DNA of 64,000 nt. It comes from Dyella lipolytica (GTDB lineage Bacteria > Pseudomonadota > Gammaproteobacteria > Xanthomonadales > Rhodanobacteraceae). Shown one piece after another: positions 3,158-38,418 of this stretch. Position 1 is the first letter of the stretch; each line of letters opens with the position of its first letter. Where the stretch lies: assembly GCF_030160075.1 (NCBI RefSeq), contig NZ_BSNQ01000009.1:182295-246294 (forward strand), given 5' to 3'. The translations under genes were made by a program, and so were the position numbers. Under the pieces are notes generated by a model. The model saw only the letters and a program-made list of their open reading frames with translations, did no database searches and was not told the origin of the DNA.

Positions 3158-3193
3158 CCCCTCACCCCAACCCTCTCCCCGGAGGGGAGAGGG
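3158..3193 (-). repeat. REP-like palindrome with C-rich tail, right copy of the inverted pair
   Basis: The tail CCCCTCACCCCAA is followed by a perfect 10-bp stem, CCCTCTCCCC / GGGGAGAGGG, with a GGA loop. It is inverted relative to 3057-3095, with tails pointing inward and 62 bases between them that contain no coding sequence. The layout matches the pair flanking the DUF559 gene at 36.7-37.1 kb. Confidence 0.75.
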
Positions 3194-35259: not shown

Positions 35260-36642
<1,383 letters not shown>

Positions 36643-36651
36643 CGCTTGACT

Positions 36652-36687
36652 CCCTCCCCTGCTTGCAGGGGAGGGTTGGGGTGGGGT
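36652..36687 (+). repeat. Left palindrome-plus-tail repeat flanking the DUF559 gene
   Basis: A perfect 11-bp stem, CCCTCCCCTGC / GCAGGGGAGGG, with a TT loop, then the tail TTGGGGTGGGGT pointing toward the DUF559 gene. It is nearly the reverse complement of 37074-37108 and of the same class as the pair between ettA and pyrF. Confidence 0.8.
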
Positions 36688-36697
36688 CGCTCTTGCT

Positions 36698-37039
36698 CTA
36701 ATGCCGCCCTGGCAAGTCCCGCAAAATCTCTTCAAGCACGCTCTCCGTGCGCAACAACACATCATCATTCCAGAAACGCAGCACGCGATAACCGCATGCT
36801 TCGATCATGTGAGTACGCATTGCGTCGTATTCACGCGTGCCCAAGTGTTGTCCACCATCCAGCTCCACAACAAGCTTCGCCGAGATACAGACGAAGTCGA
36901 CAATGTAGCCAGCGATGGGGAATTGGCGACGAAATTTGTAGTTCGCAAGATTTTCTCGACGGAGATAACGCCACAGACAACGCTCCGCATCGGTGGCAGT
37001 GAGGCGCAACTGGCGTGCGCGCTTCCATTTTTCTTGCAT
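36698..37039 (-). CDS. DUF559 endonuclease-fold protein
   Basis: A 113-residue protein from ATG 37039; a TTG inside the flanking repeat (37084) is also in frame and would extend it by 15 residues. DUF559 is a Vsr-like PD-(D/E)xK nuclease fold. Visible are RRENLANYKFRRQFPIAGY, Asp48 in IVDFV, Glu59 and Asp61 in VVELDGGQH, and the C-terminal ACGYRVLRFWNDDVL. The predicted activity is DNA nicking or cleavage; the biological role of the family is unestablished. It is bracketed on both sides by inverted palindromes, leaving almost no other sequence, which suggests a mobile or repeat-associated cassette. Confidence 0.85.
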   Translation of the reverse strand: MQEKWKRARQLRLTATDAERCLWRYLRRENLANYKFRRQFPIAGYIVDFVCISAKLVVELDGGQHLGTREYDAMRTHMIEACGYRVLRFWNDDVLLRTESVLEEILRDLPGRH

Positions 37040-37073
37040 GGCAGATCCGTTGCTTGATCGCGAGGTTGCTTTA

Positions 37074-37108
37074 CCCCCTCCCAACCTCCCCCTGCACGCA
37101 GGGGGAGG
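37074..37108 (-). repeat. Right palindrome-plus-tail repeat flanking the DUF559 gene
   Basis: The tail CCCCCTCCCAA is followed by a perfect 11-bp stem, CCTCCCCCTGC / GCAGGGGGAGG, with an AC loop. Inverted relative to 36652-36687. It lies about 14 bases before the stop of the neighbouring histidine kinase. Confidence 0.8.
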
Positions 37109-37122
37109 AGCCGAGCTAGCAC

Positions 37123-38418
37123 TTATGCCTCTCTACGGTCGAACACGATGCTGGCGATCGCACCATTGGTATCTGCGCGTGGCCTGATCGAAACATCCCA
37201 TCCATAGAGTTCGCAGAGGCGTCGCACAATGGCGAGGCCAAGGCCTGCGCCGCTGCCGCCCGCGCCCTCGCCACGCACACCTCGCTGGAATAAACGTTCG
37301 GCATCTTCTGGCTTGATACCCGGGCCGGTGTCGATCACATCGACCCGTCCTTTCTCCACTTTTACCGTAACGCGACCTTGAAGTGTGTACTTGATGGCAT
37401 TGCCGATCAGGTTAGTCAGCGCTACCGACAACACGGAGGCAGGTGCATTGACGCTATAGGGATCGTTCTGGATCAGCTCGACTTCGATCGGCTTATCGCG
37501 TACCTGCGGTCGCTGGCTCTCGATGACATCGGTGGCGACCTTCGTCACTTCGGTCGTTTCGCCTCGCGTCGGGCCGCGACGTTCGGCGCGTGACAACAAC
37601 AGCAAAGCTTCAATCAGCTCAGTAGCCTGACGCGACGCGCGTTCGATACGCTTAAGGCGTTCGCGCAACTTCTCCGTAAGATCGGGAGATCCTTGCAGCA
37701 ATTCGGTGGTACTGGAAATCACAGCCAACGGCGTACGCAACTCGTGACTCACGTCCGAGTTGAATTCGCGGTCGCGCTCGACCATCGCGGTAAGACGTTC
37801 GGAGTATCCATCGAGTGCCTGCGCCAACTCGCCGACTTCGTCGTCGGCGAAATGAGGCGCCAACGGTTCGGCCCGCCCCGCTTTGCGGAAATCGCGCAAG
37901 CGGCGGGCAAGTTCGCTGACGGGTTTGAGCACCTTGCGCGACAGCCATAAGCCGATCGCCAGCGACAGCAAGCTAAACAGAATAACGGCTGAAATCAGCG
38001 ATGTGATGAGCTGACGTTTGCCTAGATCTTCGTGACTGATGTCGTAGCTGATAAAGCCAATCAAGCCATATTTACGTGAAACGGCAAGCTTGTAATGCCG
38101 TGTACGGCCGTCCTTGTCCACGTCATGCATGTCGTACACGCCGGTAGCAAGATTCTGCCAGGCGAGAGGTGCTTTGTAGATCGTGCGATCGCTCCACATC
38201 CATGCGTCGATCAATCGGGATCCCACCGGCTGACTGGGATCCACATGCGTAGCCTCGACGGCTTGATTGACGTCGCTCTGCAGGCTCGCGTTGACCAGCT
38301 GGTTCTCCACCTTGGCTCGCACGTACAACGATGCCACGGCAAACAACGCGCTCAGGCCAAACCCAAACAGCGCGAACGAGACGATAAGGCGAAACCGCAG
38401 CTTACGCCTGGACTGCAT
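37123..38418 (-). CDS. Sensor histidine kinase of an OmpR-type two-component system
   Basis: A 431-residue membrane kinase. TM1 (about 9-31) and TM2 (about 139-160) enclose a 105-residue periplasmic sensor of no recognised family. They are followed by HAMP, HisKA with SDVSHELRTPLAV, and HATPase with LIGNAIKYT, DTGPGIKPEDAERLF and GAGLGLAIVRR. The start overlaps the response regulator end by 17 bases, so the pair is translationally coupled. The stimulus is unknown. The PhoQ/QseC-like layout is general. Confidence 0.9.
   Translation of the reverse strand: MQSRRKLRFRLIVSFALFGFGLSALFAVASLYVRAKVENQLVNASLQSDVNQAVEATHVDPSQPVGSRLIDAWMWSDRTIYKAPLAWQNLATGVYDMHDVDKDGRTRHYKLAVSRKYGLIGFISYDISHEDLGKRQLITSLISAVILFSLLSLAIGLWLSRKVLKPVSELARRLRDFRKAGRAEPLAPHFADDEVGELAQALDGYSERLTAMVERDREFNSDVSHELRTPLAVISSTTELLQGSPDLTEKLRERLKRIERASRQATELIEALLLLSRAERRGPTRGETTEVTKVATDVIESQRPQVRDKPIEVELIQNDPYSVNAPASVLSVALTNLIGNAIKYTLQGRVTVKVEKGRVDVIDTGPGIKPEDAERLFQRGVRGEGAGGSGAGLGLAIVRRLCELYGWDVSIRPRADTNGAIASIVFDRREA

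Follow-up and report, generated by a model that had tools for sequence, protein, structure and literature searches.

Inverted triplex-motif repeats bracket DUF559 nuclease genes and may be substrates of their products

What links a small nuclease gene to the two inverted repeats that enclose it? The question arises at positions 36698–37039 (minus strand) of the window, the 64-kb stretch of Dyella lipolytica DNA analyzed here, where a 113-aa gene of the DUF559 family (PF04480) begins with an ATG start codon and is predicted, from its Pfam match, a structure prediction and fold comparison, to encode a PD-(D/E)XK/Vsr-like nuclease. Its neighbors are a gene at 35260–36642 (plus strand), which we take to be sdaA, and a gene at 37123–38418 (minus strand), presumably a sensor kinase; both names follow an earlier sequence-only reading of this DNA and the gene families concerned. 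On balance, we think that the locus is probably a two-part system, in which a DUF559 nuclease gene sits between inverted, non-identical ends of the triplex-motif type and the nuclease acts on the folded repeats, driving their copying or turnover. The repeat and the nuclease family were each already known; an open-access literature search found no report of their link.

The left repeat (36652–36686, plus strand), on the 3' side of the gene, is of the CCCTCCCC type. Its stem (36652–36675) consists of the arms CCCTCCCCTGC and GCAGGGGAGGG, which form a perfect 11-bp pairing around the loop TT, and is followed by the linker TTG (36676–36678) and the tail GGGTGGGG (36679–36686). The right repeat (37074–37108, minus strand), on the 5' side of the gene, is of the CCTCCCCC type, with a stem (37085–37108) of arms CCTCCCCCTGC and GCAGGGGGAGG, again perfect over 11 bp, the loop GT, the linker TTG (37082–37084) and the tail GGAGGGGG (37074–37081). 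Each of these types is common, on its respective side, to many A-clade relatives. In both repeats the 8-nt G-rich tail is directed toward the nuclease gene, with 11 nt between the left tail and the stop codon and 34 nt between the start codon and the right tail. The two are identical at 28 of 35 positions (counted by eye) and are not exact reverse complements; their differences are systematic, in that the A of the purine arm and the non-G base of the tail shift together by one position. The sequence-only reading had described a 113-residue gene between near-reverse-complement repeats, with perfect 11-bp stems on the outside, G/C tails pointing inward and an in-frame TTG start at 37084 within the right repeat, and it was accurate on each of these points; the alternative start falls in the linker of that repeat. 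A default repeat finder run on 36400–37400 did not list the pair. Our own finder identified three tailed repeats in the 64-kb window, namely the cassette pair and a solo B-type repeat far from the cassette and without a nuclease (3158–3193, minus strand), which a pattern search also returned.

Judged by sequence, the window repeats belong to an orphan repeat family that is already known, the intrastrand triplex motif (TM, earlier PIT); to judge from the wording of the 2015 survey by Holder and colleagues, these are probably the BoxC repeats of E. coli. Both have the TM order of pyrimidine arm, loop, purine arm, 3-nt linker and mirror purine tail. In the left repeat the arm GGGGAGGG mirrors the tail GGGTGGGG, and in the right repeat the arm GGGGGAGG mirrors the tail GGAGGGGG, an arrangement in which the base order would allow G.GC, A.AT or T.AT triples. 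Many dispersed copies are also present in this genome, with 68 matches to the B-type pattern (up to 3 mismatches) and none to the reversed pattern, while the shorter A-type pattern gave 35 matches against 7 for its reversed form. TMs were likewise described as intergenic and dispersed, at times in inverted pairs combining two linker types, and over 260 genomes were reported to contain them (Holder et al, 2015, PMC4666352, cited here and below from a partial text). E. coli MG1655 carries 23 copies, including five inverted pairs that each combine two types, and their presence in this species was described, without an agent, no later than 2000 (Hoyne, cited in PMC4666352). For the E. coli motif, and for that motif only, single-stranded DNA was shown to fold as a triplex in vitro, with NMR arguing against a G-quadruplex; in vivo footprinting in E. 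coli did not reveal the triplex (PMC4666352). The same survey reported raised variability and local genome instability around TMs and left the mechanism open. TMs were described there as orphan repeats, whereas here they accompany a nuclease gene. The main text of PMC4666352, as far as it was available, holds no words beginning with “nuclease”, “DUF” or “ycjD”, and the available text of PMC3733652 holds no Vsr, DUF or BOX-C. A search of the open-access literature, which included GGGTTGGGG palindromes, found no earlier report of a link between DUF559 and TMs, and papers outside it may hold one.

The mirror relation between stem and tail was quantified using TM-like repeats from the fetched loci, reduced to 87 distinct arm/tail combinations. 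At each of the seven positions, the occurrence of a base other than G in the stem correlated with its occurrence at the same position of the tail (r 0.26–0.45). The correlations summed to 2.44 in the mirror register; the direct register gave 0.57 and shifted registers −0.32 to 0.66, and none of 5000 permutations reached 2.44. For a stricter subset of 69 combinations the mirror sum was 2.67, but position 2 dropped to r 0.08. Where the stem carries an A (n = 190), the tail base was triple-compatible in 50% of cases, versus 32% in the direct register and 31% after permutation; the half of these positions that lack a triple-compatible tail base counts against the triplex model. As stem and tail covary in the mirror register, the tail is constrained to match the stem as a third strand would, and this is good but not fully independent evidence, because the subtypes are few and related. 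In some copies from Alphaproteobacteria, Coxiella and Rickettsiaceae (L095, L096, L073, L086, L117, L104, L203 and L205), a second hairpin replaces the 3-nt linker when viewed by eye, which suggests a branched variant of the motif.

We then considered DUF559 genes at other sites. In this genome, 3/3 DUF559 genes are bracketed by such repeats. At the second (L002), the closest repeat on the 5' side is outward-facing and the one beyond it inward-facing; the third (L003, G000:C9:363468-363779) has an in-frame stop codon, yet is repeat-bracketed. A first set consisted of the 80 best-matching named loci from one scan, of which 6 with short flanks were dropped and 74 used. An inverted-repeat score of at least 40 between the flanks was obtained for 54/74 loci versus 3/433 offset positions, and a threshold of 30 gave 63/74 versus 17/433. 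The order set (32 loci, including L138 despite its short-flank flag) scored at least 40 in 25 loci versus 1/126 offsets (25 versus 9 at 30), and the phylum set did so in 13/28 loci versus 1/110 offsets (15 versus 6 at 30). Tailed TMs were counted separately at those 130 of 140 loci that have at least 200 nt on both sides. An inward-facing tailed TM was present on both sides of 63/130 DUF559 loci, versus 0/656 offsets (taken from the same loci, and thus a control for local composition rather than for every kind of gene) and 0/30 sdaA genes (the sole other gene tested). DUF559 genes elsewhere are thus flanked by the repeat far above controls, as the sequence-only reading had led one to expect. 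Inward TMs outnumbered outward ones both upstream (83 versus 33) and downstream (81 versus 28), and outward TMs on both sides were seen at 12/130 loci. At about half of the 130 loci, one or both flanks lack a tailed repeat that faces inward.

A structural hairpin finder, which ignores end-to-end similarity and demands no tail, was applied to 350-bp flanks of all 140 loci. In this uncontrolled count, a hairpin was found on the 5' side of 110 loci, on the 3' side of 111, on both sides of 93 and on neither side of 12. Some of the 12 hairpin-less loci are located at contig ends or have stems too imperfect for this finder, and the imperfect stems of L063 and L075 are visible in the inverted-repeat comparison. 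The hairpin-less loci also include, in addition to L075, four from Legionella, of which one is situated at a contig end. At L075 itself (Legionella anisa), the DUF559 gene is flanked by similar inverted repeats of ~150 nt with a triplex-type motif at the inner end.

Across genomes, the number of repeats was compared with the presence of DUF559 using a net TM count (pattern matches minus reversed-pattern matches). The order survey covered 250 genomes, of which 72 were scored as DUF559-positive (best E ≤ 1e-9) and 11 with weak, mostly partial matches were counted as negative. A net count of at least 3 was reached by 49/72 DUF559-positive versus 5/178 DUF559-negative genomes (p 2e-28, which, like our other p-values, overstates independence because genomes and loci are related), and three of these five exceptions have weak DUF559 matches (G106, G173, G244). 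At a net count of at least 20 the contrast was 26/72 versus 0/178, and for a net count of at least 3 it was 24/27 versus 2/25 within the organism’s own family and 43/80 versus 18/219 across the phylum (299 genomes). The loci of the order, phylum and family surveys are the best-scoring ones of their searches rather than a random draw, and some genomes occur in several sets. In the order, 23/72 DUF559-positive genomes have a net TM count below 3. Conversely, no DUF559 match was obtained in the repeat-rich genomes G468 (net 104), G304 (net 35) and G410 (net 120 after subtraction of 48 reversed matches). G468 and G526, which belong to one genus and have 107 and 11 repeat matches and no DUF559 match, are among the clearest counter-examples. 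Many reversed-control matches were also seen in G003 (126 versus 99), G330, G334 and G523 (4 versus 88), so other G-rich repeats exist there and TM counts for these genomes need care.

Nuclease lineage tracks repeat subtype. The 140 loci yielded 138 distinct nucleases, and nearest neighbors were taken below 85% identity. Such neighbors share the class of the 5' repeat in 39% of cases (n = 108) versus 10% when permuted, and the class of the 3' repeat in 45% (n = 109) versus 19%, with 0/5000 permutations as high in either comparison. In this genome, each of the three cassettes has its own combination of classes. Among 97 family genomes, the A-type 5' repeat was present at a net count of 3 or more in 12/13 of those whose nuclease shares at least 64% identity with that of the window, versus 8/84 others. 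The eight exceptions include G260, where a nuclease of 60% identity has A-type ends, and G246, with its scar at the sdaA gap. They also include G250, which has 101 A-type matches and no A-clade nuclease (best 55%), a finding that could reflect a recent loss, an assembly gap or another enzyme. Identity alone does not separate the clades, as the nucleases of G130 and G060 (61–63%) have B-type ends. A single nuclease match, with A-type stems at its ends, was found in each of G257 and G260, and these genomes contain 47 and 27 A-type matches and 0 B-type matches, while G254, G085 and G214 have 281, 147 and 121 B-type matches and 0 A-type, although the B pattern at two mismatches can also capture some A-type 3' repeats.

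The two ends of the window cassette are distinct as well. Its end pair (CCTCCCCC type on the 5' side, CCCTCCCC type on the 3' side) is seen in only 7/14 A-type loci, with the arrangement always the same. One type is found at both ends in 4/14 (G594, G080, G584, G184), and 3/14 are incomplete or ambiguous (G202, G257, G039). Another fixed end pair occurs in several Rhodanobacter-type loci (L059, L061, L068, L084, L126, L146). Ends of this kind also occur at other places, either singly or in inverted pairs with no gene between them. The fetched loci contain 18 distinct gene-less inward pairs with a spacer of up to 250, a count made without a shuffled control and including a few degenerate pairs, and 15 of them combine two different stem classes, like the E. 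coli TM pairs of Holder et al (PMC4666352).

The window protein matches DUF559 (PF04480) with an E value of 6.8e-43 (145.4 bits against a gathering cut-off of 20.6), the domain spanning residues 5–109. Apart from a sub-threshold match to MTES_1575, Pfam returned nothing else for this protein, and Y1 (PF01797) was not matched. Residues invariant among 45 sequences include E19, D48, E59, D61, Q64 and H65. An AlphaFold model (pLDDT 89, pTM 0.84) aligned with NGO0050 (3hrl) at Z 15.4 and 48% identity in the fold alignment, this being the best solved relative (E 1e-39), with I-Bth0305I (3r3p) at Z 10.9 over 92 residues (rmsd 2.6), and with the Vsr entries 1cw0 and 1vsr at Z 9.2 and 8.7. Mitoribosomal chains rank beside Vsr (Z 9.0–9.3), and TnsA scored Z 6.5, where values below 8 may reflect only a common arrangement. 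The model thus suggests that the protein is likely to be a Vsr-like PD-(D/E)XK nuclease; the fold suggests its chemistry, not its substrate. Vsr, whose fold the window enzyme resembles, nicks T:G mismatches in methylated motifs, where the mismatches are made by cytosine methyltransferase (VSP repair). E. coli YcjD and Neisseria gonorrhoeae NGO0050 belong to the same DUF559 family and are known as predicted or putative nucleases, with no substrate assigned in the sources consulted. The likeness to the EDxHD homing endonuclease I-Bth0305I concerns the Vsr-like fold of the catalytic domain. I-Bth0305I is a multidomain dimer with a target of nearly 60 bp (PMC3943268, partial text), whereas the window enzyme is a single 113-aa domain, encoded between repeats, and is without the extra tethered DNA-binding regions of EDxHD homing endonucleases. 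A search with PADLOC for a role of the cassette in defense gave only weak matches, to parts of longer proteins.

The history of the site was followed by searching for the sdaA end in 59 family genomes, viewing the 130 nt immediately downstream at 30 loci and reading on at 8 of them. The cassette lies between sdaA and the kinase in this genome, in G238 and in Dyella dinghuensis (L044); being syntenic in at least three species, it is mainly inherited. The sequence-only reading had called for cassette-free alleles in relatives, and two were found within the same genus. In G246 a perfect palindrome is all that the sdaA–kinase gap contains, with neither tails nor gene. It looks like a loss scar, as would be expected had a deletion collapsed the two stems, each of which is also a direct repeat of the other. 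In G060 the gap holds other DNA. Both of these genomes share the position of the second cassette (L002) with the present one. Repeats without the nuclease were seen as well, with four TM-like repeats between sdaA and the kinase in G202 and TM-like pairs after sdaA in G085, G039 and G206, where the stretch read contains no kinase match. No pre-insertion allele or target-site duplication was found at the sdaA gap, where the relatives are 78–82% identical around sdaA and G246 is scarred. The DUF559 gene is under purifying selection: six pairs of relatives gave nuclease dN values of 0.17–0.20 with dS of 1.7 or more or saturated, and two Variovorax pairs gave dN of 0.04 and 0.09 with dS of 0.61 and 0.56. 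A stop inside the domain was found in 5/140 DUF559 copies. Overall, the history of the cassette looks like inheritance with losses rather than rampant transposition.

These observations suggest how the two parts might work together. A TM that becomes single-stranded during replication or transcription would fold into a hairpin whose groove takes up the G-rich tail as a third strand. This fold would be recognized by the cognate DUF559 enzyme, which would nick or cut there, and repair or copying of the cut ends could then spread, trim or remove TM pairs. A largely vertically inherited nuclease might in this way maintain a population of short repeats, as has been proposed for RAYTs and REP/REPIN. 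REP/RAYT systems likewise comprise a small gene between two inverted palindromic repeats, which also occur solo and as inverted doublets (PMC2817692, PMC3116915, partial texts), and the RAYT phylogeny has been described as largely congruent with that of the species (PMC3116915), in keeping with a window cassette that is itself mainly inherited. The enzymes differ, a Y1 tyrosine transposase (PF01797) in RAYTs and a Vsr-like PD-(D/E)XK nuclease in the window, as do the repeats, since REPs have a GT(A/G)G-type head and the window repeats have a mirror G-rich tail instead. The cassette therefore has the flanking inverted palindromes and the gene-less doublets of REP/RAYT without a Y1 gene or a GT(A/G)G head, and it would work like REP/RAYT but is not a member, because the transposase and the repeat tag both differ. 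The sequence-only reading had proposed a REP-like layout with a Vsr-like nuclease in place of the transposase, which the PF04480 match, the Vsr-like fold and the general bracketing support. Its idea of a REP-like element stands as regards the layout and the gene-less doublets; the repeat itself is the known triplex motif, which that reading had not recognized.

Other explanations were weighed against the two-part system. DUF559 might be a host DNA-repair enzyme of the VSP-repair kind, as proposed for Caulobacter VsrA, with repeats that merely insulate or regulate the gene and are independent of the nuclease. Purifying selection, synteny and the Vsr-like fold are compatible with this, and in Caulobacter a DUF559-containing protein is responsible for an SOS/fitness phenotype and VsrA contains a DUF559 domain (PMC12907096, partial text). 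We nevertheless consider it unlikely, as it leaves unexplained why the genome-wide number and subtype of the repeats follow the nuclease, and TM repeats had no promoter or terminator activity in earlier work cited by PMC4666352. The nuclease gene could also be a homing-type parasite of TM pairs already in place, cutting at them or between them and being copied in, while the repeats are spread by something else. This would account for the match to the catalytic domain of I-Bth0305I and for gene-less pairs, including those at the sdaA gap in relatives. The repeat class, however, follows nuclease lineage, and the differing ends keep the same arrangement (7/7 such A-type loci), more like the termini of an element than like targets, which makes a parasite of this kind decidedly unlikely.

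Since Y1 transposases are the agents of REPs, an IS200/RAYT-type Y1 transposase could in principle mobilize TMs in trans, with DUF559 as a passenger. Y1_Tnp matches are common in the order (171/250 genomes) and show a weak association with TMs (43/54 TM-rich versus 128/196 other genomes, p 0.048), but the association of DUF559 is far stronger, and 11/54 TM-rich genomes have no Y1_Tnp match, including G085, G184 and G214, each of which exceeds 120 pattern matches; we regard mobilization by Y1 as very improbable. The remaining alternative is an artifact of chance or composition, in which GC-rich palindromes are common and any short gene would seem flanked. The low complexity of the repeats and the few genomes with many reversed matches, such as G003 and G523, speak for caution, while the offset, sdaA and reversed-pattern controls and the mirror covariation speak against chance, and bracketing by chance was rejected on these grounds as scarcely credible.

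If the two-part reading is correct, the REP/RAYT way of life would have arisen a second time with an unrelated enzyme, triplex-forming DNA would have a natural case of being under selection, and a large nuclease family without an established substrate in the sources consulted would gain one. It would also offer a cause for the local genome instability around TMs described by Holder et al. A broader proposal, which we advance tentatively and hold to be possible rather than probable, is that such cassettes represent a new class of mobile or self-maintaining elements, in which a free-standing PD-(D/E)XK nuclease recognizes triplex DNA ends and employs them as its termini, and which has spawned MITE-like TM pairs in many bacteria, and that the E. 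coli TM/PIT repeats would be the non-autonomous family of YcjD. A candidate nuclease makes the question of an agent for TM/PIT repeats testable in a laboratory strain of E. coli.

E. coli YcjD matches PF04480 with an E value of 1.4e-49, and ycjD was detected in 3365/5426 complete E. coli genomes and, at that sensitivity, not in the remainder. In two ycjD-negative genomes that were opened, efflux genes adjoin sapF, and ycjD and eefRABCD have been described as alternatives at the same place, by phylogroup (PMC12817139, partial text). The E. coli fabI-sapF interval (L124, L184, L185) shows an allelic swap of ycjD and efflux genes beside a triplex repeat. In K-12, viewed by eye, a TM lies ~165 bp downstream of ycjD with its tail directed away, a decayed TM overlaps the end of ycjD and there is no upstream TM, and because of this outward, decayed and one-sided layout the K-12 copy is not a standard cassette. 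TM copies were counted with one query containing both ycjD and a TM, in 60 rows taken at even ranking steps, of which 2 plasmid rows were excluded. The 37 ycjD-positive chromosomes had 17–30 TM matching places (median 22) and the 21 ycjD-negative ones 2–23 (median 4), a pattern by lineage rather than 58 independent points, because the strains are related. Some ycjD-negative strains retain 11–23 TM copies, which would fit a recent loss of ycjD. The 2015 survey described TMs as having no plasmid association (PMC4666352); two places on the E. coli plasmid NZ_AP023207.1 match the triplex repeat.
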